This document shows, piece after piece, positions 26,664-40,757 of a stretch of 43,232 nucleotides of DNA. Origin of the DNA: Desulfonema limicola. GTDB taxonomy: Bacteria > Desulfobacterota > Desulfobacteria > Desulfobacterales > RPRI01. The DNA lies in contig DYJH01000006.1 in the NCBI GenBank assembly GCA_020723255.1, positions 1-43,232 of the forward strand, written 5' to 3'. Made by a program: the position numbers and the translations under genes. The notes below the pieces were generated by a model that worked only from the letters and a program-made list of their open reading frames with translations, made no database searches and was not told the origin of the DNA. Positions within the stretch are counted from its first letter, which is position 1. Every line of letters begins with the position of its first letter.

Positions 26664-26710
26664 CTTTCCCCCATAAACGCTAAGTGATTTTATCAAGTTT
26701 GTTAATAAAA

Positions 26711-26889
26711 ATAGAATATCGAACAAGAAATTTCGAATTATGAAATTTTAGTTCTTACTCTTTGCAGTTTTAATGCTTGTAACAAATATTGATATTAGTT
26801 AATCGTTTTCATCAATTAAAGGTTCAGCTTTTGATTCCGGCTTTATTAAATTTGCTTTCATAATCATTATTCCTTGTTCGATATTCTAT
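26711..26889. repeat. inverted pair of the GAATATCGAACAAG repeat family
   Basis: ATAGAATATCGAACAAG at 26711-26727 and its exact complement at 26873-26889 form a 17-bp inverted repeat across the mshN-mshM gap. Related sequences occur at about 35015-35050 and 36838-36885, so this is a dispersed family. Confidence 0.6.
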
Positions 26890-26952
26890 ATTCAAATTAC
26901 ATTTATAGCTTTTATGGATCGTTTTCCCCGTAAACTTCAATAGTTGCTTTAT

Positions 26953-28693: not shown

Positions 28694-30637
28694 TTGGTAA
28701 GAAAGAATGAGATAACCTCCACCGAAAAACTGCTCGACCTTATCCGCGGGAAAGCGGAGGCGCTGTCGCCGGACAGAGCGGATCAAAACCCGGCGAAGAC
28801 CGCACAAAATAATTCTTCTCCTAAACCCGTTAAGATAACCTCCGGCAAGAAAGCTAATGTGAATAAGCCGGCAGTCGTGGGGATCGACATCGGGTATGAT
28901 TCCCTGCGTCTTGTCAAGACCGTTAACGGCGCCGATAGCGTACCGGAACTCGTGGATCAAAGGCGCATTGCCATTCCTTCTTCTCTTGAACGCGGCTCCG
29001 CTGGATTCGTAAACTTCCTGCGCGAAGGACTTGATGATTTTTGCGGGCCTAATAAAAAATTTAAGCTTTGGGCGATAATGTCGGCAGCACATGTAAGTGT
29101 GCATCACATCACCATTCCCAAGGTTCCCAGAAAGCAATTGGAAAATGTTGTCTTATGGAATGTGAAGAAGGAAATGCCCTTCGATGAGAAAGAATATATT
29201 CTCGATTTCGATGTCCTTGGCGAGGTAACCGAACAGGGCGTCGCCAAATCGGCGATCATATACTACACTGCGCCAAAGCAGGAAATCGAGGAAACAAGAA
29301 AGCTTTTTACCCGCGCCGGCCGGCCTTTGACCGGTTTGTCCATCGTGCCTTTTGCAGTGCAGAATATCTTGCGCACCCGTTGGCTTTCCGGTGCCGATGG
29401 GACTATAACAAGTTTGTTTATCGGCAACGAATTTTCCCGGATCGATATCTATGCTAAGGGTAATCTTGTCATGACCCGTGGTATCAAGGCTGGCATCAGC
29501 AGCATGACGGAGGTGCTCATAGAAGGCATTACTAAAAAAGGTCCCTTTGGTTCCGGCGAAGTTCCTCCGGACAAAAGTAAAGCGCGGGAGATATTGAACA
29601 GTTTGAGCGCCGGCTTGCCGTCTTTGCCGGCAGCGGTCCGATATGGCCTCGAAGAAGAGGAGATATTGAAGATGCTCATGCCCGTGATGGAACGCCTGGT
29701 TAGGCAGGTGGAGCGGACATTCGAGCATTACACGATTAACCTGGGCAATGAGCGTGTGGAGAAGATCTACGTTTCCGGGTCGATTAACCTGAGCAAGCGG
29801 CTCGCTGAATACGTTGGCGGGCAACTCGGCATCGCAAGCGAGATATTCGATCCCTTGAATGCGCAGTCGGCCTGTTTCGATGACAAGGGCAGCCAGTTTA
29901 CCTGCATTGCTGAGAGAATCGCTTTTGTGCCGGCGCTGGGCATGGCTCTTTCCGACAACAGCCATACGCCGAATTTTCTCCTTACCTTTAAGGACAAGGA
30001 AAGAGAGGCCAACGTCAAGCGGATCAACATGACTATTTTCGGCGTTTTTCTGGCGTCTGTGTCCCTTCTCGGCGGTGTGTTTTTTTACCAATGGCATGCC
30101 ATAGCTCAGAAGAACAAGGTTCTGTTTGAACTGGAAAGAAAATTGGCGCAATACAGCCCGCCGGTGAGCCGGGATCTTGTCATGAATGTTTTGAAGTCGG
30201 TCAGGGGTGAAGTGAGCACCGCGAAAAGCTATAGGAAGCGGTATGAGGGGCTGGCGATAATTTCCGAATTGGCTAATCTGGCGGCGCCGGACATCCGTCT
30301 TGTCAGCGTGAAAGTCGGGCTTGGAGGTTTGCCGGAAAGACCGAAGGAGGAGGTCAAAGCGGGGGCCGCAGATATAGATAAAGATGAGGCGGAGAAGACG
30401 CAGGCAAAGCAGGATGAAATGAAAGAAACGCCAAAAAAAGAGTCAAATACGGTTGAGATCGAGGGCGTCGTTGTGGGCGAGAAGAAGGCGCTTCAAACGG
30501 GCCTGGCGGATTATGTCATGAAGCTGAGCAAGTCGCCCCTTTTCCGGGAGATTAAAGTTCAGAGGACAACGGCGGAGAATTTACGGCGGATAGCCTTGCT
30601 GCGATTCGCAATTACGATAAAATTGGCGGAGAACTGA
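28694..30637 (+). CDS. pilM: PilM-PilN fusion, cluster B
   Basis: A 647-residue protein. After an N-terminal extension of about 58 residues rich in Lys, Pro and Asn comes an actin-like PilM domain with the phosphate motif VVGIDIGYDSLRLVKTV (61-77), KQLENVVLWNVKKEMPFD and the second motif SLFIGNEFSRIDIY. A membrane helix at about 446-466 (TIFGVFLASVSLLGGVFFY) leads to a PilN-like periplasmic coiled coil and domain. PilM normally binds the cytoplasmic tail of PilN, so fusing both in one chain is a notable variation. The start is TTG, with GGGAG nine bases before. It opens a plus-strand operon that is visibly richer in G+C than cluster A. Confidence 0.85.
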   Translation: MVRKNEITSTEKLLDLIRGKAEALSPDRADQNPAKTAQNNSSPKPVKITSGKKANVNKPAVVGIDIGYDSLRLVKTVNGADSVPELVDQRRIAIPSSLERGSAGFVNFLREGLDDFCGPNKKFKLWAIMSAAHVSVHHITIPKVPRKQLENVVLWNVKKEMPFDEKEYILDFDVLGEVTEQGVAKSAIIYYTAPKQEIEETRKLFTRAGRPLTGLSIVPFAVQNILRTRWLSGADGTITSLFIGNEFSRIDIYAKGNLVMTRGIKAGISSMTEVLIEGITKKGPFGSGEVPPDKSKAREILNSLSAGLPSLPAAVRYGLEEEEILKMLMPVMERLVRQVERTFEHYTINLGNERVEKIYVSGSINLSKRLAEYVGGQLGIASEIFDPLNAQSACFDDKGSQFTCIAERIAFVPALGMALSDNSHTPNFLLTFKDKEREANVKRINMTIFGVFLASVSLLGGVFFYQWHAIAQKNKVLFELERKLAQYSPPVSRDLVMNVLKSVRGEVSTAKSYRKRYEGLAIISELANLAAPDIRLVSVKVGLGGLPERPKEEVKAGAADIDKDEAEKTQAKQDEMKETPKKESNTVEIEGVVVGEKKALQTGLADYVMKLSKSPLFREIKVQRTTAENLRRIALLRFAITIKLAEN

Positions 30638-30638
30638 A

Positions 30639-31184
30639 GTGGATACTTTCATAAGAGGAAATTTGGACGCAAAATTGCCGCAACAGAGCCTGATTTATTT
30701 GATAGTGTGCCTCTCCGGGGTATTGGTTTTTATCTTGCTGGGGATTATACCTGCACAAAGGCGCCTGGCCGGGCTGGAGCGCAAGATAGGAGAGGAGAGA
30801 TTGCGTCTGGAAGAGCAGAGTACGCTGCTCCCCGTTTATGACATTTTGAAGCAAAGGATTCACAGGAGGGAGTGGATTCTGCCGTTTCCTCAAAAAGCAG
30901 AATTGCCGCAGGAACAGTTGGATCAATTGGGTGAGAAGGTGAACGAAATCGCCAATCAGGCTGGGGTGGCAATCGTTTCATATTTTCCTGTCGTGAATTC
31001 ACTCGCCTCCGGTTCACAATCACTGGCGGCAGAGGCGGCGCTTAAGGGGGATTTCTTCTCCTTTCGAAAATTCCTGACCGGTTTGGGAGGGATTGCCTGC
31101 GTCACACATATAGAAGAGATACTGATGGAGCAGCATCCGGACGGTCTTGAAATGAAACTGAAGTTTTGGATTGCGCTCTCTTAA
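30639..31184 (+). CDS. PilO-like pilus assembly protein, cluster B
   Basis: A 181-residue bitopic protein with an N-terminal helix (SLIYLIVCLSGVLVFILLGI), a coiled coil (LERKIGEERLRLEEQSTLL) and a C-terminal ferredoxin-like domain (EAALKGDFFSFRKFLTGLGG) as expected for PilO. The start is a GTG one base after the pilM stop, with GGAG before it. PilO pairs with PilN to form the periplasmic alignment ring. Confidence 0.75.
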   Translation: MDTFIRGNLDAKLPQQSLIYLIVCLSGVLVFILLGIIPAQRRLAGLERKIGEERLRLEEQSTLLPVYDILKQRIHRREWILPFPQKAELPQEQLDQLGEKVNEIANQAGVAIVSYFPVVNSLASGSQSLAAEAALKGDFFSFRKFLTGLGGIACVTHIEEILMEQHPDGLEMKLKFWIALS

Positions 31185-31194
31185 GGCATTAACG

Positions 31195-31707
31195 ATGAAG
31201 AAAATTGAAAAAAGGGAAAAGATTATCCTGGGTGTGATGGCGGTCATCATCCTGTATGGCCTTTTCACTTTTCTCCCTTGGGGTGCGGGCGGCAAATCTT
31301 CATTACCGGCGGCCGGACTTTCGCCGGCAGAATTGAAGGCATTATCCGGAGATCTGGCTGTCGCCATGAGCAAAGCGGTTCTTTCTCACCGTGAATCCTA
31401 TGCCATTAACCGTGCGGAAGCGGGGTGGCAGCGCGATCCATTTTATGCGACAAAGGCATACATGGAACTGTTGAAGTCGAAAGAGGCGGTCAGGACCATT
31501 CCTGACGCTGCGAAAAATATTACATTTAATTACACGGGTTACCTGGAGTGCGGCAACCGGCGCATAGCTATCATTAACGGGGTGGAATATGCCGCCGGTG
31601 AGGCGCTTGAAGTGAAGGGATACGTTCTCCGGACCGTTACGCCGGCGAAGGCGACTATAGAAAAGATTGACGACAGGGTAATGATTAAAGTTCCGATGGA
31701 GGAATAA
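31195..31707 (+). CDS. PilP-like pilus assembly protein, cluster B
   Basis: About 170 residues from the ATG at 31195; the ORF track uses a TTG at 31171 that overlaps the pilO-like gene. One membrane helix (KIILGVMAVIILYGLFTFL) is followed by a linker with RDPFYA, which recalls the DPF motif of PilP, and a beta domain (ITFNYTGYLECGNRRIAII ... YVLRTVTPAKATIEKID) like the secretin-contacting HR domain. It lies between the PilO-like and secretin genes, as PilP should. Confidence 0.72.
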   Translation: MKKIEKREKIILGVMAVIILYGLFTFLPWGAGGKSSLPAAGLSPAELKALSGDLAVAMSKAVLSHRESYAINRAEAGWQRDPFYATKAYMELLKSKEAVRTIPDAAKNITFNYTGYLECGNRRIAIINGVEYAAGEALEVKGYVLRTVTPAKATIEKIDDRVMIKVPMEE

Positions 31708-31736
31708 TAACCGATAGTCGGGTGGGGGGGGGTAAA

Positions 31737-33431
31737 TTGCGTAAAATCAGGCAAGTTAGGCAGCTTTGCAAGGCTTTATTTCTTTCCCTGCTGTTTCTTT
31801 CGGGATGTGCCGGCAAAGAAGCAGTAAAAGCAGTAAAAAAGGATGCTTTTTTCGAGAAGTGGCATATGGCAGCCAAGGAATCACTCGGTCATTCGCCGGC
31901 ACCACGCGGCAGGGTGACGGTTCTTTCTGAAACCAAGACTTCCGAGGGAGCTCCGGCCACGCCGGAGAAAGGGGTTGCGCCGGCCGGCAACCTTCCTAAA
32001 AACCTCGTTACCATGGAGATGCGCCAGGCTGACGTCAAGTCGGTCATACGAGCCCTGGCCCGTTCGGCAGGTGTCAATATCCTGCTCAAGAACGACATCA
32101 AAGGGGAAATAAACGCCAATTTTACCAATGTACCATGGGAACAGGCTTTTAACAGCATCCTGCAGGCGCAGGGTTTGTCCTATGTTCAGGAAGGCGACAT
32201 TATCAGGGTGGTGTCGCTCGAAGACATGGAACAGTCTGCCAAGATGGCCGCCGTGCGTGAAAAGCAGAAGGTGCAGTCCATCGAGGAAAAGATTATGGAA
32301 CCCCTGGCAACGATGGTGGTGAATGTGGACTATGCGGATCCGGATGCGCTACGCGATAATCTCCTTGATTTTCTCACCAAGAACAAGGATGGCAAGATTG
32401 CCCGCGGTTCCATTAAGGTCGATAAGCACAGCAACTCACTGATTATCCAGGCAATTCATGAAGATCTCGACCGGATGATCCCGATTATCGAGAAACTCGA
32501 TAAACCCACACATCAGATCAACATCAAGGCCAATATAGTGGAGACCACAAAAGACATGGCCCGTAATCTAGGCATCCAGTGGGGCGGCATGTACAGAGTC
32601 CAGGCAGCCAATCAGTCTCTGTATTTTACTCCGGGGGGCTCTGGCGGCTCGGCAACATTGCCGCAGGGACCTTTTTCGGGCGCTTATAACCCAACCTCAG
32701 GATCAGGAGGAACAACAGTTGGAATATCGGGAACGGGAACGGGCGGCACCGGTGGGACGAACAACAGCGGTGTGGGCATGGGTATAAGCGGCCAGGGTTT
32801 CGGCGTCAATTTCCCCGCAGATGGTCTGGGGACCGCCGCTTCGTCCTCGCTCGGCTTGATCTTCGGGACAATCGGCGGCAATGTCCTGGAGGCTCAGCTA
32901 AGCGCTTTGCAGAATGACAATAAGCTCAATATCTTATCGAGTCCCTCCATCACCACGCTGGACAATCAAATGGCTTACACGGAAAACGGCGAAAAGGTTC
33001 CCTATGTAACGTTAAGCACTTCCGGGATCGGATCGGGCACAACCCAGACCGTGAGTTTTGAAAATGCCGTTCTCAGGCTGGAGATTACCCCCCACGTTAT
33101 TGACGAGAAAAACCTGAAGATGAAGATTATAGTCAAAAAGGATGAGGTGGACCCAAGCCGCAACGTGTTAGGCAATCCCTTTATCATCAAGAAGCAGACA
33201 GAAACGACCCTGATTGTCCGGGATGGGGAGACCATCGTGATTTCGGGATTAAGCAAGAAGACGACCATAGGCAACTCTTCCGGCGTCCCCATGCTCAAAG
33301 ACCTGCCGGTCTTAGGGTGGTTGTTTAAGAACATAAGTAACGATGATAAACTGGAAGAGGTATTGATTTTCATTACGCCTAAAATCCTGCCGCCCCAGGT
33401 TGCCGAGTTGGCGCCGGAAGTGAAGGGATGA
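31737..33431 (+). CDS. pilQ: PilQ-type lipoprotein secretin, cluster B
   Basis: Outer-membrane secretin of about 564 residues. A lipoprotein signal (FLSLLFLSGCAGKEA) acylates Cys24 if translation starts at the TTG at 31737, which follows a long G-run; the ORF track uses GTG at 31722. Order of domains: STN-like (NLVTMEMRQADVKSVIRALA), an N1 domain (VVNVDYADPDALRDNLLDFL), then the secretin channel (INIKANIVETTKDMARNLGI; ILSSPSITTLDNQMAYTENG; ETTLIVRDGETIVISGLSKK; LPVLGWLFKNI; EEVLIFITPKILPP). A Gly/Ser/Thr-rich insertion of about 60 residues lies in the channel. It is the pilus exit pore. Confidence 0.93.
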   Translation: MRKIRQVRQLCKALFLSLLFLSGCAGKEAVKAVKKDAFFEKWHMAAKESLGHSPAPRGRVTVLSETKTSEGAPATPEKGVAPAGNLPKNLVTMEMRQADVKSVIRALARSAGVNILLKNDIKGEINANFTNVPWEQAFNSILQAQGLSYVQEGDIIRVVSLEDMEQSAKMAAVREKQKVQSIEEKIMEPLATMVVNVDYADPDALRDNLLDFLTKNKDGKIARGSIKVDKHSNSLIIQAIHEDLDRMIPIIEKLDKPTHQINIKANIVETTKDMARNLGIQWGGMYRVQAANQSLYFTPGGSGGSATLPQGPFSGAYNPTSGSGGTTVGISGTGTGGTGGTNNSGVGMGISGQGFGVNFPADGLGTAASSSLGLIFGTIGGNVLEAQLSALQNDNKLNILSSPSITTLDNQMAYTENGEKVPYVTLSTSGIGSGTTQTVSFENAVLRLEITPHVIDEKNLKMKIIVKKDEVDPSRNVLGNPFIIKKQTETTLIVRDGETIVISGLSKKTTIGNSSGVPMLKDLPVLGWLFKNISNDDKLEEVLIFITPKILPPQVAELAPEVKG

Positions 33432-33441
33432 TAAGAGTTAT

Positions 33442-35007
33442 ATGATGGACTACTTTGAGATACTTAATTTGCAAAGAGAGCCTTTTTCCAATTCCCCGGA
33501 ACCGGAACTCTTTTTCCTGTCAGGTCAGCATTGGCCCTGCCTGCAGAAACTGGAGCTGGCGGTTCGCCTGCGCCGGGGTCTGAACGTTGTTATGGGTGAA
33601 GTCGGCACAGGCAAGACAACACTTTGCCGTCAACTGATCCTCAATTTTTCCAGCACTGAAGAAGACCGGAAACTCATTGAAACTCACCTCATTCTTGATC
33701 CTTCCTTCAGCAGCTCGAAGGAATTTTTATCGGTTGCGGCGCTGCTTTTTGGGATAGCGGGAGATGCTGAGGAAAAAACAGAATGGCAGCAAAAAGAAGA
33801 CATCAAAAATTACCTTTTCACACGGGGTGTCCACGAAGGAAAGACAGTGGCGCTTATCATCGATGAAGGCCAGAAACTGCCGGTATATTGCCTCGAAATC
33901 CTGCGTGAATTCCTGAATTATGAGACTAACGAGCATAAACTTTTACAAATTATTATCTTTGCGCAAAAGGAATTCGCTTATTCCTTGCAGCAGTGCCCGA
34001 ACCTTGCCGACCGGGTGAATCAATATTATCTCCTCAAGCCCCTGAACTTCCGCAACTGCATTAAATTGATCAGGCACCGGCTGGCGAAGGCCAGCGCGAA
34101 TCCTGCCGTTGTGCCGCCGCTTTTCACCCGGCCTGGTCTATGGGCGATCTACCGTGGAACGGACGGTTATCCGCGTAAGATCATAAACGTTTGCCATCAG
34201 GCGATGCTTGCGATGATCATCCAAAACCGCAGACGCGCCGGTTATTTTCTGGTCCGTTCTTGTGCGGGCAGAGCGGCCGTTCCGGAAGAGCTGCCGCGGA
34301 TGCGCTGGGCTTTCGGGCTGCTGTGTGCGGTCTTAATAGCGGCGGGCTTTTTTTTAAGTGCTGGGATTTATGAGAACCACTATTCGCAATTGGAGAAAAT
34401 AAGTGTTGAGTTGACGCCGCAGAAAACGGCACGCACCGTCCTTCCGGTGGTTGCCGAACCGAAGGTTCAGCCGCACGTAAAGCGCGATAATCAGGAAGCG
34501 GCGTCCATGCTGGCAAAAATATTCCCATCTGCGCCCTTGCCGGTAAAACCGGCTCTGTTGGGCAGTTTGACAGTCATAGACAACGATTGCATTATTCGCA
34601 TCATGGGACGCATTTACGATAATTATTCGTTTCATTTGCTTGATGCTGTGAGGAAAGCGAATCCACAGATAAGGAACATCGATTTCGTCAAGAAGGGCGA
34701 TGTTCTCAACATGCCCGTGTGTGCAAGCGTTTCCGGTCATTTACCTCAGGGCAGTTGCTGGGTGCAGGTTGGTCTGACCGGAAACCTTGACGAGGCTTAT
34801 AGGTTTCTGACGAAAAATCGCGGCAAGATCGCTCTGATATTGCTTCACTGCTGGGATAAGCGCAAGGGCATGACCTTTCCGGTGATTTTGAAAAAAGGTT
34901 TTCCCGACGAAGCTGCGGCAGCATGGGCAATAAAATCCCTGCCGGCGGCTTTTTCCTCGCAGGCGCGGGTGATCAATAAGTGGGATGAGGATACAGAGTT
35001 TTTATGA
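33442..35007 (+). CDS. ExeA/MshM-like AAA ATPase with LysM-like C-terminus, cluster B
   Basis: A 521-residue protein beginning YFEILNLQREPFSNSPEPEL, the ExeA signature. Walker A is GEVGTGKTT (52-60) and Walker B is VALIIDEGQ (136-144). A membrane helix at about 289-309 is followed by a linker and a LysM-like region (IRIMGRIYDNYSFHLLDAV ... IRNIDFVKKGDVLNMP) and then a SPOR-like end. LysM and SPOR both bind cell-wall glycan. The cluster A paralog lacks the LysM-like part, so the two differ in the wall-binding module. Its place between secretin and pilB is the same as in MSHA loci, but no TPR (MshN) gene follows here. Confidence 0.88.
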   Translation: MMDYFEILNLQREPFSNSPEPELFFLSGQHWPCLQKLELAVRLRRGLNVVMGEVGTGKTTLCRQLILNFSSTEEDRKLIETHLILDPSFSSSKEFLSVAALLFGIAGDAEEKTEWQQKEDIKNYLFTRGVHEGKTVALIIDEGQKLPVYCLEILREFLNYETNEHKLLQIIIFAQKEFAYSLQQCPNLADRVNQYYLLKPLNFRNCIKLIRHRLAKASANPAVVPPLFTRPGLWAIYRGTDGYPRKIINVCHQAMLAMIIQNRRRAGYFLVRSCAGRAAVPEELPRMRWAFGLLCAVLIAAGFFLSAGIYENHYSQLEKISVELTPQKTARTVLPVVAEPKVQPHVKRDNQEAASMLAKIFPSAPLPVKPALLGSLTVIDNDCIIRIMGRIYDNYSFHLLDAVRKANPQIRNIDFVKKGDVLNMPVCASVSGHLPQGSCWVQVGLTGNLDEAYRFLTKNRGKIALILLHCWDKRKGMTFPVILKKGFPDEAAAAWAIKSLPAAFSSQARVINKWDEDTEFL

Positions 35008-35014
35008 AAATTAT

Positions 35015-35050
35015 TCGAATATCGAGCAATGAATGCCGAAGGAAGAGAAG
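35015..35050 (+). repeat. dispersed repeat copy at the pilB start
   Basis: TTCGAATATCGAGCAATGAATGCCGAAGGAAGAG matches the 36838-36885 repeat (GAATAATGAATGTCGAAGGAAGAG) closely. It supplies the first ATG of the pilB ORF, which suggests that the true start is downstream. Confidence 0.6.
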
Positions 35051-35067
35051 GATTTCTGAGAATCCCA

Positions 35068-36774
35068 ATGCAGATAAGAAAACGAATAGGTGAGATGCTG
35101 ATGGAAAGCGGCCTGCTTTCGGAAGAGCAGTTGAAGCAGGCCCTGGCGGAACATAAAAAGGCGGGCTTGAAGATTGGCCAATATCTTGTTCGGAGTGGCA
35201 TCATTGCTGAAAACCATATCATAGATATTCTGAGCCGGCAGTTAAAGATCGAGAAGTATTACCCCGATAAATATCCGATCGATATGGAATTGTCACGCCT
35301 GATTACGGTGGATATCGCCCAGAAATATCAATTGGCGCCCCTCAGGAAGAGAGGTCGTTTGCTGACGATTGCCATGACCGATCCCCTCGACATTAAAGCC
35401 CTTGACTCCATTGAGGTGATGACCAATACCGAAGTGGAACCGGTGGTCTGTACGGAACGGGAGCTCAACCAGTTGATCAACAGCATCTACGGCATGCAGT
35501 CCCAGATCGGGGAAGTCCTGGAAAGCATGGAGATTGAGTCCCAGCCGGAGGAAAAAGGCATGGACCAGGAGGGGGTCGAGGATGTCCATGTTGCCTCCCT
35601 GCAGGATATGGCCGATAAAGCCCCGGTAGTGCGGCTGGTCAACTCCATCTTCGCGCAGGCAGTCCGAGAGGGGGCCAGCGACGTGCATATCAGCCCCCAG
35701 CAGGACAACATCCAGGTTCGCTTTCGCATTGACGGCAAGTTGCACGAAGTGCCTTCTCCGCCGAAAACGCTTTTACTGCCGATTATCGCCCGCTTGAAGA
35801 TCCTCTCCAATATGGACATTACGGTATCGAGGTTGCCACAGGACGGCCGTTTGACGATGCGCGCTGGAAATAAAGAGATCAATGTCCGTATCTCCACCAT
35901 GCCGACCATTTATGGTGAGAATATTGTACTCCGGCTGCTCGATACGAGTACAGGCGTTTACTCACTGGACCGTCTCGGGATGGTGGAAACAGACCGGGAT
36001 AAGATAGGGACAATGATTATGAAGCCTTATGGCATGATCCTGAGTACCGGACCGACAGGCAGCGGCAAGAGCACCAGCCTTTACGCGATCCTGAAAGAGG
36101 TAAACAGGCCAGATATCAATATCATCACCCTGGAAGATCCGGTGGAGTACCGGATTAACGATATCCGCCAGGTGCAACTTAACCGCAAGGCCGGCATGAC
36201 ATTCGCGAGCGGGCTGCGCTCCATACTGCGGCAAGACCCGGAAGTGATCATGGTAGGGGAAATCAGGGACAAAGAGACGGCGGCCATTGCCGTGCAGGCG
36301 GCTCAAACGGGACACCGTGTTTTAAGCACCCTGCATACAAACGACGCTGTCGGAGCCGTGACGCGCTTTATTGATATGGGCATTGAGCCCTTCCTCGTTT
36401 CCTCGGTTCTTCTGGTATCTTTTGCCCAGCGTCTTGTGCGTACTAATTGCTCCTATTGCTCGGAGCCTTACAAGCCTCCCGAAAAGGCATTGATCGCATG
36501 GGGCCTGGACAAGGCAGAAAACGCCAATTTCCGGAAGGGGAAAGGCTGCTATCAGTGTATGAACACTGGCTATAAAGGCCGGACAGGTATCTTCGAAGTG
36601 CTTGTTAACGACGAACATATTCAGAATATGATCATGAGGAAGAAATCGGCCCAGGAGATAGCGCGGGAAGCAGTGGCCGCAGGCAAATTAAGAACTTTGA
36701 AGGAGGATGCCGCCCACAAGGTTTTGCGGGGGATTACCACCCTGGAAGAAGCCGCTTCCGCAGTCCTGGTATGA
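35068..36774 (+). CDS. pilB: PilB-type assembly ATPase, cluster B
   Basis: The extension ATPase of cluster B, about 568 residues from the ATG at 35068, the normal family length. It has a single MshEN domain (KRIGEMLMESGLLSEEQLKQ; KIGQYLVRSGIIAENHI), an N2 domain with ASDVH and RFRIDGKLHE, Walker A GPTGSGKST, Walker B EVIMVGEIRD, His box LSTLHTNDA and a tetracysteine pair CSYC...CYQC. The ORF track starts at 35029, but those 13 codons come from a dispersed repeat and no homolog would share them. Unlike the cluster A ATPase it carries no duplication. Confidence 0.95.
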   Translation: MQIRKRIGEMLMESGLLSEEQLKQALAEHKKAGLKIGQYLVRSGIIAENHIIDILSRQLKIEKYYPDKYPIDMELSRLITVDIAQKYQLAPLRKRGRLLTIAMTDPLDIKALDSIEVMTNTEVEPVVCTERELNQLINSIYGMQSQIGEVLESMEIESQPEEKGMDQEGVEDVHVASLQDMADKAPVVRLVNSIFAQAVREGASDVHISPQQDNIQVRFRIDGKLHEVPSPPKTLLLPIIARLKILSNMDITVSRLPQDGRLTMRAGNKEINVRISTMPTIYGENIVLRLLDTSTGVYSLDRLGMVETDRDKIGTMIMKPYGMILSTGPTGSGKSTSLYAILKEVNRPDINIITLEDPVEYRINDIRQVQLNRKAGMTFASGLRSILRQDPEVIMVGEIRDKETAAIAVQAAQTGHRVLSTLHTNDAVGAVTRFIDMGIEPFLVSSVLLVSFAQRLVRTNCSYCSEPYKPPEKALIAWGLDKAENANFRKGKGCYQCMNTGYKGRTGIFEVLVNDEHIQNMIMRKKSAQEIAREAVAAGKLRTLKEDAAHKVLRGITTLEEAASAVLV

Positions 36775-36837
36775 CAGGATTCCCCATGGGTCATGGGCAA
36801 AAGAGATAACTTATTATTAATCCGGATAAAAGTAATT

Positions 36838-36945
36838 TGAATATCGAATACTGAATAAGGAATAATGAATGTCGAAGGAAGAGAAAAGGTAAGAATTAAA
36901 AAAAAATTCATTATTCGAAATTCATTATTCAATTTTTTATTAACA
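36838..36945. repeat. dispersed GAATATCGAA repeat with palindromic arms before pilC
   Basis: TTGAATATCGAATACTGAATA with GGAATAATGAATGTCGAAGG is mirrored by TTCATTATTCGAAATTCATTATTC about 50 bases later. It fills the 195-base pilB-pilC gap together with an A-rich run. Confidence 0.55.
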
Positions 36946-36969
36946 AGCCTGATAAAGTAAGGATATTTA

Positions 36970-38176
36970 ATGGCGACATTTTCCTATGAGTGCATAAGTG
37001 ACACCGGCGCTGTCATATCCGGAACTATCGAAGCCGATACCGCGGCAATGGCAGAATATCTGTTGATCGGCAAAGGCTATATCCCCATCAAGATTGCCAC
37101 AGACAAAACAAAGGAATCTTTCCTGAATCGATTTAACGAAAGGTTTGGAAAGCTTGACCCGCGAGAACTTATCCTTTTTACGAAACAATTCCGCTCCATG
37201 CTTCATGCGGGTGTGCCTATTCTCCGGCTATTGCAGGTTTTGGAAGCGCAGACGGAGAACAAGGTCTTGAAACTCGTTGTAGTGCGCATGGTGCGGGATA
37301 TCAAAGAGGGTTCCACCCTGTACGAAGCCATGGAAAAACATCCGTCGGTTTTCTCCCCGTTGTACCGCAGCATGGTGCGGGCAGGCGAAATGAGCGGCGC
37401 TCTGCCGGAGGTGCTTAGACGGCTCGTTTACATAATCGAGCATGAAACGAAGATCAGATCAGACATCAGGTCTGCACTTCAGTACCCCAAGATGGTGGTG
37501 TTCGCTCTGGGCGGGGCTTTTTTCGTTCTGCTGACCTTTGTCATCCCGAAGTTTGTAACCATATTTGACAAGGCTGGTATCGCGCTTCCCTTGCCAACAA
37601 AGATTGCCATGCACATGTACCAGTTGCTTGTGAACTATTGGTATCTGATTATCGCTGCAGTAGCCGGCCTCATCTTCGGTTTGCGGGCATATTTCAAGAC
37701 CGGCGCAGGCCGGTTGGTCAAAGACGCCTTTCTGCTCAGAATGCCGATTTTAGGACCTCTCTTCCAGAAGGCGGCCATGTCGCGTTTTGCCAGCATTTTT
37801 GCCATCCTTCATTCCAGCGGGGTGCCGGTAATGACTTCTATGAGCATCCTCTCCGAAGTCATTGGCAATGCTTCAATTTCCAGGGATTTTGAACGCGTGC
37901 GCCAGCAGATGGAAGGAGGGCAGGGCATTGCGGGGCAGCTCCAGGCACTTTACGCCCATGGTTGTCGATATGATTGCGATTGGCGAGGAGACAGGCAACA
38001 TAGAAGAGATGCTGAGGGAAATCACGGCCCATTATGATGATGAAGTGGCTTATGCAGTTAAGGGTTTGTCGGACGCCGTCGGTCCGATTCTGATTGTGGC
38101 TCTGGCCGCGGTCGTCGGCTTTTTTGCCCTGGCGATTTTTATGCCCATGTGGGATTTAACAAAGTTAGTAAGATAG
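36970..38176 (+). pseudogene. pilC: PilC/GspF-type platform protein, cluster B, frameshifted
   Basis: Reading starts well (MATFSYECISDTGAVISGTI, with AAGGA before the ATG) and contains the first T2SSF repeat (LILFTKQFRSMLHAGVPILR) and the second (MSRFASIFAILHSSGVPVMT). After QQMEGGQGIAG the frame is lost and the ORF ends at 38037. The continuation HFTPMVVDMIAIGEETGNIE, LPMWDL-type C-terminus included, is in the +1 frame up to 38176. One extra base in the GGGG at 37932-37935 explains both halves: without it the protein reads through for 401 residues, matching the 402 of the cluster A paralog. Either the gene is inactive or the base is a sequencing or assembly error. Confidence 0.9.
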
Positions 38177-38266: not shown

Positions 38267-38635
38267 ATGAAAAAAAATGTTTTAAGGAATGAAGGAGGTT
38301 TTACACTGATTGAAATCATCGCAGTTTTGGTCATACTTGGCATCCTGGCCTCCGTGGCCGTGCCTAAGTATTTGGATATGCAAACACAGGCAAGACAGAA
38401 TGCCGTACAAGGCGCCGTAGCTGCGCTGCAATCGACCGCTACTCTGGAGTATGCAAAGAATCTGCTTACAACCCCGTCGACAACGACCTATACGCCCACT
38501 TCACCGGTTGTAGTTGGTGATTTTAGCGGCACCATAGCAAATGCTGCCGGGGTGGTAACTGTCACAGTGACTGGTGGACCGACGTGGTGGGCCAGTTCCA
38601 TCACAGGCAACTCAAAATCTTTTTCAATCTATTGA
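38267..38635 (+). CDS. type IV prepilin (MshA/PilA-like), cluster B
   Basis: A 122-residue prepilin with leader MKKNVLRNEGG, then FTLIEIIAVLVILGILASVA with mature Glu5. The small globular part is rich in Thr and Val (TTPSTTTYTPTSPVVVG; GVVTVTVTGGPTWWASSI), and no cysteine pair is present. AAAAGGAG lies seven bases before the ATG, one of the best ribosome sites in the window, and a strong hairpin follows. It is the likely major subunit of cluster B. The many Thr and Ser residues are possible O-glycosylation sites, which fits the gene downstream. Confidence 0.92.
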   Translation: MKKNVLRNEGGFTLIEIIAVLVILGILASVAVPKYLDMQTQARQNAVQGAVAALQSTATLEYAKNLLTTPSTTTYTPTSPVVVGDFSGTIANAAGVVTVTVTGGPTWWASSITGNSKSFSIY

Positions 38636-38667: not shown

Positions 38668-38708
38668 CATAGAGATAGCTGATCATAACCTGATCAGCTA
38701 TCTCTATG
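38668..38708. terminator. perfect 18-bp stem-loop after the cluster B pilin gene
   Basis: CATAGAGATAGCTGATCA and its exact complement flank a five-base loop (TAACC). It lies 33 bases after the pilin stop. Only a weak T-rich stretch follows, so it may limit read-through into the next gene or stabilise the pilin message. Confidence 0.65.
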
Positions 38709-38726
38709 TTAGCTTCCTTTATGGAT

Positions 38727-40757
38727 ATGAAACATTGCCCCTGGTCCGGCCTCTTAACTTACGTCCTGATTGTGTGCGCCATTATCGGTTTGACGATCTT
38801 TGCTTACAAAGGTCTTGGCGGACACCAATTTCTCAATTTTGACGATGACGTTTACGTAGCCACAAATAATCATGTGAAAAACGGCTTCACATGGGAGGGA
38901 CTGAAGTGGGCTTTTACCTTCACTGATGTTTCCTACTGGCAGCCCCTGGCGTTATTGTCCCACATGCTGGATTGCCAGCTTTTTGGCGTGAAACCGGGGC
39001 CCCATCTACTGATGAATCTGATGTTCCACATAGTTAACTCTCTTCTTCTGTTTCTGATTCTTAGGAAAATGACGGGCGCTGAAATCAAGGCCGCCCTGGT
39101 GGCCTTATTATTTGCCCTTCATCCCCTGAACTGCGATTCCATTGCCTGGCTGGCAGAAAGAAAAACCGTTTTGAGTGCCCTGTTTTTTCTGGCGGCGATC
39201 CATACTTACATTTCTTATGCGCAAGGAAAAAGAAATTGGCTCTTTGCCGTTACATTGGGTCTTTATGCCTTAGGTCTGATGAGTAAACCCGCCATTCTTA
39301 CCTTTCCTTTTCTCCTTTTGGTATTGGATTACTGGCCGCTGGGCAGGTTGCGGCATTACGATCCTTATGCTTCCGAGAGTAAAACAGTGTCAAGAGGTCA
39401 TTGGGAAAGATTGGTTGCTTTGTGTAAATCAAACAATGTTTCACTTATCCTGGAGAAAGCGCCTTTTCTTGTTCTATCCCTGCTTTCGGCATCCCTGACC
39501 ATGGCTTCGGTCATGGATGCTCACATGGTGGTCGGTAACCGGCTTATCCCGCTTTCTCTGCGGATTTATAATCTCTTTGTTTCCATTGTGCATTACTTGC
39601 GCAATATCTTCTGGCCGGTCGAATTATCCATTTTCTATCCTTTCCCGAAAACGATTGTCCTGTCAGAGCTGTTTCTGGCGCTGCTGATTGAAGCTTCGGC
39701 AAGCTTTCTGGCTTTTAAAATGAGGAAGGAAAGGCCTTGGCTTTTAGCGGGATGGTGCTGGTTTCTCATCGCCTTGGCGCCAGCCTGCGGCCTGGTACAG
39801 GCGGGTCTATGGCCCGCAATTGCCAACCGTTTCATGTACCTGCCCCTGATGGGGATTTTAGTGATGCTGGTCTGGGAAGGCGACGAACGATTAAAGGGAG
39901 CTTATTCGCGAGTTTTAAAGGTCATTTTATGCAGTGCCTTGCTGATTTTCCTTCTCTCTTTGACCCATCTCCAGAATATCTATTATTCCAATAGTTTTTC
40001 CTTATTTAACCGCTGTCTGAGCGTGGTCGGCAAAAATGAACTGGCGCTCAATAATTTAGGCCAGTCACTGGCTACTTTAGGCCGGGTAAACGAGGCCATG
40101 CAGAATTTTGCTGAGAACATCAAACTTAATCCGATGCAGGCTACATCTTACAGTAATTACGGTACCTGTTTAGTCGCCAAGGGCGATGATCTTCAAGCCA
40201 TCCCCTATTTCCAAAAGGCGATTGCCCTTAATCCCAGGCTGATTGTTCCCTACATACATCTTGGCCTCATACAGAACCGGCGAGGGTATAAAAACGAAGC
40301 GGTAAAGATCATGGAGAAAGCACTGCAAATCGACCAAAATAATTTGGAGGCGCACAATAATTTGGGCGCCATCCTTGCCGAGCAGGGCAAATTTTCTGCA
40401 GCGGCGTCGCATTTCTTATTTGTTTTGAAAGCAGACCCCGCGCATGTACAGGCGAGGCTCAATCTGGCTAGCGCCTATGAAGAGACGGGTCTGTATGCTG
40501 AAGCCATGGTCGAGTACGAAACCCTCGATAAATCATTGACCCGCAACAAGGGCTATGTGCACTATCGAATTGCCCGCCTGTATGCACAAAAGGGTATGTT
40601 CAGGGAATGTGTCAATTACCTATCGGCGGCCCGGAAAGAAAATTTGAAGGTGGGGGAATATATTAAAACAGATAAGAAATTCGACGGTTTTCGAGCATCA
40701 GCGTTTTCTGCGCCATTTCTGGAAGATCAAAAAAAGAGACTTTCCGGGGTTGAATAG
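38727..40757 (+). CDS. membrane GT-C-like protein with C-terminal TPR repeats
   Basis: About 676 residues. The N-terminal two thirds are polytopic, with an acidic loop after the first helix (NFDDDVYVATNNHVKNG) and the block FHIVNSLLLFLILRKMTG ... ALHPLNCDSIAWLAERK that resembles TMTC/protein O-mannosyltransferase-type GT-C enzymes. About six tetratricopeptide repeats follow from residue 440 of the ORF (NNLGQSLATLGRVNEAMQNF, SNYGTCLVAKGDDLQAIPYF and others). The ORF track starts at 38706, inside the hairpin; the later ATG at 38727 is preferred, without a clear ribosome site. Its position behind the Thr-rich pilin suggests pilin glycosylation. This is inferred, and no donor can be named. Confidence 0.78.
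   Translation: MKHCPWSGLLTYVLIVCAIIGLTIFAYKGLGGHQFLNFDDDVYVATNNHVKNGFTWEGLKWAFTFTDVSYWQPLALLSHMLDCQLFGVKPGPHLLMNLMFHIVNSLLLFLILRKMTGAEIKAALVALLFALHPLNCDSIAWLAERKTVLSALFFLAAIHTYISYAQGKRNWLFAVTLGLYALGLMSKPAILTFPFLLLVLDYWPLGRLRHYDPYASESKTVSRGHWERLVALCKSNNVSLILEKAPFLVLSLLSASLTMASVMDAHMVVGNRLIPLSLRIYNLFVSIVHYLRNIFWPVELSIFYPFPKTIVLSELFLALLIEASASFLAFKMRKERPWLLAGWCWFLIALAPACGLVQAGLWPAIANRFMYLPLMGILVMLVWEGDERLKGAYSRVLKVILCSALLIFLLSLTHLQNIYYSNSFSLFNRCLSVVGKNELALNNLGQSLATLGRVNEAMQNFAENIKLNPMQATSYSNYGTCLVAKGDDLQAIPYFQKAIALNPRLIVPYIHLGLIQNRRGYKNEAVKIMEKALQIDQNNLEAHNNLGAILAEQGKFSAAASHFLFVLKADPAHVQARLNLASAYEETGLYAEAMVEYETLDKSLTRNKGYVHYRIARLYAQKGMFRECVNYLSAARKENLKVGEYIKTDKKFDGFRASAFSAPFLEDQKKRLSGVE

Follow-up and report, generated by a model that had tools for sequence, protein, structure and literature searches.

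A frame break with a net deficit of eight nucleotides in the platform-protein gene of the cluster B pilus/secretion-type operon, probably left by a recent small deletion

The gspF/pilC-like gene of cluster B is found in two overlapping reading frames, which raises the question of whether the gene is truly interrupted, which change interrupted it, and what this would mean for the machine to which its product belongs. The window, the whole stretch of DNA that was analysed (43,232 nt), comprises bases 1–43232 of contig C142 in a genome assembly of 3.67 Mb (217 contigs, 87% complete). The source is an uncultured bacterium related to Syntrophus and Smithella; among named relatives, the nearest that were found are metagenome-assembled genomes of Smithellaceae and Syntrophaceae. 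An assembly ATPase, a secretin, and a pilin are present next to the platform gene as operon partners, in the following arrangement.

28694–31707, + strand: pilM-, pilN-, and pilP-like genes of cluster B, open (model matches; same order in relatives)
31722–33431, + strand: cluster B secretin of the PilQ/GspD type, open (TIGR02515 above cut-off)
33442–35007, + strand: ExeA-like ATPase of cluster B, open (comparison with relatives)
35029–36774, + strand: cluster B assembly ATPase of the GspE/PilB type with an MshEN domain, open (domain and model matches)
36970–38037, + strand: frame 1 of the platform gene, with the N-terminal domain, Cyto1, TMS1, TMS2, and the first part of Cyto2 (ORF list; PF00482 and TIGR02120 matches)
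37937–38176, + strand: frame 2 of the platform gene, with the rest of Cyto2, TMS3, and the natural stop at 38176 (PF00482 match; conserved positions)
38267–38635, + strand: GspG-like pilin of cluster B (N_methyl PF07963; TIGR01710 below cut-off)

The gene order pilM, pilN, pilP, secretin, exeA, gspE, pilin matches that of relatives, and in relatives of the same genus the operon is conserved with an open platform gene. The pilin is followed by a large membrane protein (38706–40757) that carries TPR repeats at its C-terminus and may act on the pilin. Copies of a short, AT-rich dispersed repeat (GAATAATGAATGTCGAAGGAAGAG and relatives) are located between gspE and gspF (36775–36969), at the predicted gspE start (35017–35049), and in cluster A (26689–26906), with eight more partial matches on other contigs. 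The gspE gene may begin at the next ATG downstream.

Taken together, the two frames of the platform gene make up a single GspF/T2SSF protein, as the sequence-only reading had proposed and as the ORF list, PF00482, and TIGR02120 confirm. Frame 1 encodes 355 aa up to a stop at 38037, the final ~30 residues being out-of-frame translation, and frame 2, open from 37862 to 38176 (104 aa), encodes the last ~80 residues of the platform protein. In a profile search both frames match PF00482 and the GspF/PilC models over complementary parts, with positions 1–324 of TIGR02120 covered by frame 1 and positions 307–401 by frame 2, each single frame scoring below the TIGR02120 and PilC equivalog cut-offs. 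Two T2SSF (PF00482) domains are present, the second of them split across both frames, and hydropathy of the combined frames yields three hydrophobic segments (170–202, 218–244, and 362–397), the third encoded in frame 2 only. A homology-free codon-model scan places the frame switch at 37934, where the non-coding tail is the longest among all frame-switch candidates in the 358 kb of genome scanned. Thus, on the evidence of the scan and of the complementary matches, the frame break is real in the sequence.

The nature of the change can be read from the short segment surrounding the break, which contains three elements.

37930–37948, + strand: lesion interval, the 19 nt between a conserved Ile codon (37927–37929) and a conserved Phe codon (37949–37951) (homologue comparison)
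37932–37935, + strand: G4 run, an ordinary one, as the 43-kb window has 102 runs of exactly four G or C
37937–37944, + strand: 8-mer AGCTCCAG, putative remnant of a collapsed 8-bp tandem repeat (fits homology in both frames)

The sequence-only reading had located the G run correctly (CGGGGC at 37931–37936, with the four G at 37932–37935) and had attributed the break to slippage by a single G, whose removal was said to join the frames cleanly. In all 63 homologues compared, which range from the same genus, order, and phylum down to distant paralogs at ~26% identity, the Ile-to-Phe segment of the motif GIAxPLxxAxYFTPM comprises nine codons (27 nt), as against 19 nt in the window, a frame-disrupting change of net minus 8 nt relative to every intact homologue. 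The same nine-residue spacing is seen in 35/35 relatives in a first alignment, which the second alignment of 63 sequences largely includes. Removal of one G leaves 18 nt, or six residues, between Ile and Phe, and the resulting join lacks the Leu in this gap that is invariant across the 30 clade members checked and is encoded by frame 1 at 37939–37941; indeed, the clade profile tracks frame 1 up to 37947, past the G run. The one-G join scores 633.8 against the clade profile, compared to 641.2 with three unknown residues placed in the gap, a difference of 7.4 bits. On the grounds of spacing, the invariant Leu, and profile score, the insertion of a single G was rejected. The resemblance of the corrected length (401) to that of the cluster A paralog (402), to which attention had been drawn, is a coincidence, as this paralog is only ~25% identical and the true orthologues mostly have 403–408 aa.

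A net loss of 8 nt would, as a single event, explain why the frame changes and why residues are missing. To retain an insertion in the G4 run, one must assume that the ancestor had already lost three codons at this place. Such a history would agree with the single open frame restored by removing one G, but it needs two events, in a segment whose length is unchanged in 63/63 homologues, and it inherits the lost Leu and the lower profile score, so that we regard it as very improbable. Even less credence is given to programmed ribosomal frameshifting or to a split protein that still functions. In favour of these readings, the two parts are conserved and open, yet every homologue is a single open frame, a frameshifted product would still be short of residues in the fixed-length segment, and the ATG of frame 2 at 37958 is not preceded by a convincing ribosome-binding site.

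Both parts of the gene remain well preserved. All clade-invariant positions are kept, 35/35 in the N-terminal part and 20/20 in the C-terminal part, the frame 2 part is 77–83% identical to the five closest orthologues, and C-terminal identity to relatives matches that predicted from the N-terminal part (mean z −0.25). The retention of the invariant positions, together with this agreement in identity, indicates that the lesion is recent and that the halves belong to one gene. A chimeric join of two different genes was discarded, because the N- and C-terminal parts share one pattern of relatedness.

We infer that the lesion exists in the cells and is not confined to the assembly, although the opposite case, in which the gene is intact in cells and 8 nt were lost from the consensus, for example because a short repeat collapsed or strain variants were mixed, is the most serious competitor and retains a modest probability. 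The fragmented state of the assembly, with its 217 contigs and 87% completeness, leaves room for a minority strain variant or a local misassembly, and a consensus could plausibly slip at a short tandem repeat. Breaks of this type also occur elsewhere in this material, as another genome of the genus (G004, L041:6840-8260) has the exeA-like gene of this operon broken into two frames, so lesions in the cluster B operon are not unique. On the other side, the scan of a 358-kb sample of genome stretches returned 11 frame-switch candidates, including the break in the platform gene; most of those read further resemble normal neighbouring genes that overlap by a short stretch, and the one other clear break lies at a G9 tract. 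With frame breaks this rare, general assembly noise is an unlikely cause. Genes of the window that bear A8, T8, and G7 runs are open, which suggests that the assembly is good at homopolymers. Errors of 8 nt are uncommon in a short-read consensus, a point of general knowledge that is relevant if this genome was assembled from short reads, and a homopolymer slip would more readily be put down to an assembly error than a loss of 8 nt.

By the most likely route for the deletion, a short direct repeat (AGCTCCAG) would have lost one of its units through strand slippage. This 8-mer, present at the site in a single copy, reads in frame 1 as QLQ, which includes the invariant Leu, and in frame 2 as SSR ahead of His-Phe, and its fit to both frames suggests the pattern expected after collapse of a two-copy 8-bp repeat. 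When the repeat is rebuilt, it places Gln at a position at which relatives carry Pro (27/30) or Thr (3/30), so the exact ancestral bases are uncertain, and loss of another 8-nt segment, encoding Pro-Leu, would be compatible as well. A repeat at the junction site was looked for in relatives and none was seen.

A reversible switch has also to be considered, since the sequence-only reading had taken the G run for a possible phase-variable homopolymer. Slippage at the G4 run or at the 8-bp repeat would turn cluster B on and off, and, in its slower form, the 8-bp unit would silence cluster B in part of the population, the contig having captured the "off" state. Units of 8 bp can slip, and long G tracts do exist in this genome, one of them interrupting a restriction-modification gene. 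However, the break coincides with four G only and not with a long homopolymer (~7 or more), a run this short and this common in the window led us to reject homopolymer switching at the G4, and the long tracts (G9) sit elsewhere. Moreover, with one copy of the 8-mer left, re-expansion by slippage is not favoured, and relatives have no repeat at this site. Only a slight chance is therefore given to phase variation as a whole, and one equally slight to the slow repeat switch; the lesion is most likely an ordinary loss-of-function change and not a switch. That the change is a small deletion instead of a homopolymer slip weakens the sequencing-error and phase-switch readings alike.

The genome offers better candidates for tract-length switching than the G4, with runs of at least nine G or C at 12 places. 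At one of them, a G9 tract (C20:3157-3165), a gene that encodes HsdR_N and N6_Mtase domains is broken into two frames (L113:1772-4064). The first frame matches the N6_Mtase profile as far as position 195 and the second from position 189 on, followed by type I specificity-like sequence. The gene is a good candidate for a restriction-modification enzyme that is phase-variable and here switched off. The cluster B secretin gene has another G9 at its start (31724–31732), in the likely ribosome-binding region, where relatives of the same genus have G7 (L042) and G5 (L045).

We therefore consider it likely that a recent net deletion of 8 nt within 37930–37948 shifted the frame of the cluster B GspF/PilC gene and that this is a loss-of-function lesion, with the filament most likely no longer assembled. 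Following the 8-nt loss, the frame would shift in the Cyto2 region; a ribosome would read ~322–326 correct residues, then ~30 wrong ones, and stop at 38037. The predicted product would keep TMS1 and TMS2 and lack TMS3, with only part of Cyto2 retained. The platform protein is one of four core components in every type 4 filament system (PMC10191384), and in PulF the trimer core of the platform is formed by TMS1 and TMS3 (PMC10790770). Since the platform protein is core to every type 4 filament machine, filament assembly by cluster B is most likely impossible. A second intact copy of the gene was sought in the genome, at its 87% completeness, and only paralogs at 26–35% identity were found, namely a T4aP-like pilC (contig C43), a T2SS-like gspF (contig C169), and the cluster A gene. 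The earlier claim that cluster B lacks an intact platform protein thus holds, in that the gene is interrupted, its predicted product is incomplete in the second cytoplasmic domain and lacks the final transmembrane segment, and no intact copy was found in that search; rescue by the cluster A platform protein (MshG), which had been raised as a way out, would not be expected at ~25% identity.

The function of cluster B in this genome is probably lost. Its machine would most likely have been silenced recently, its other parts not having decayed yet. One lineage has thus probably lost, very recently, a conserved pilus/secretion-type machine of which the remaining operon is still open. A literature search on pili in Syntrophaceae and Smithella returned no papers.

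A cleaner question is posed by the platform proteins of the whole clade, defined here as 43 proteins at ~49% identity or more to L035, the closest orthologue of the window gene (members in the comparison: L006-L033, L035-L037, L075-L087). The residue before the Pro of TMS3 is Gly in 39 of them, Ala in three, and Val in one, whereas Glu occupies this place in 20/20 outgroup GspF/PilC proteins of that alignment. Of the pattern looked for in GspF/PilC platform proteins, Tyr-Pro in TMS1 and Glu- or Gln-Pro in TMS3, the window gene has the Tyr-Pro, but carries Gly-Pro in TMS3 (frame 2, 38073–38105), like nearly the whole clade. For platform proteins, the TMS3 Glu has been put forward as a residue that lines an ion channel (PMC10790770), and an entire clade thus lacks a residue to which this role is ascribed in all such proteins. 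Before the Tyr-Pro of TMS1, most of the clade has Gln, and the first four paralogs have a hydrophobic residue. One could see this Gln as a compensating move for the lost Glu, but this is only a guess, because many phylum outgroups carry Arg at that position.

Compared with known systems, the window gene shares with GspF/PilC of type II secretion and type IV pili (PF00482, TIGR02120) the two T2SSF domains and three hydrophobic segments, and the operon partners GspE, secretin, pilin, and PilM/N/P are common to those systems and cluster B. It differs from them in being broken and, along with its clade, in having Gly-Pro in place of Glu-Pro in TMS3. The likeness to the phase-variable pilC1 and pilC2 of Neisseria, which are switched by long G tracts, consists in the shared name "pilC" and in the presence of a G run within the coding sequence. 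The Neisseria PilC is the tip protein PilC/PilY1 and not a platform protein (PMC10191384). The run in the window gene comprises four G only. Another pilus-related, secretion-type gene set with GspG-like pseudopilins resembles cluster B and is mentioned here as a lead only.
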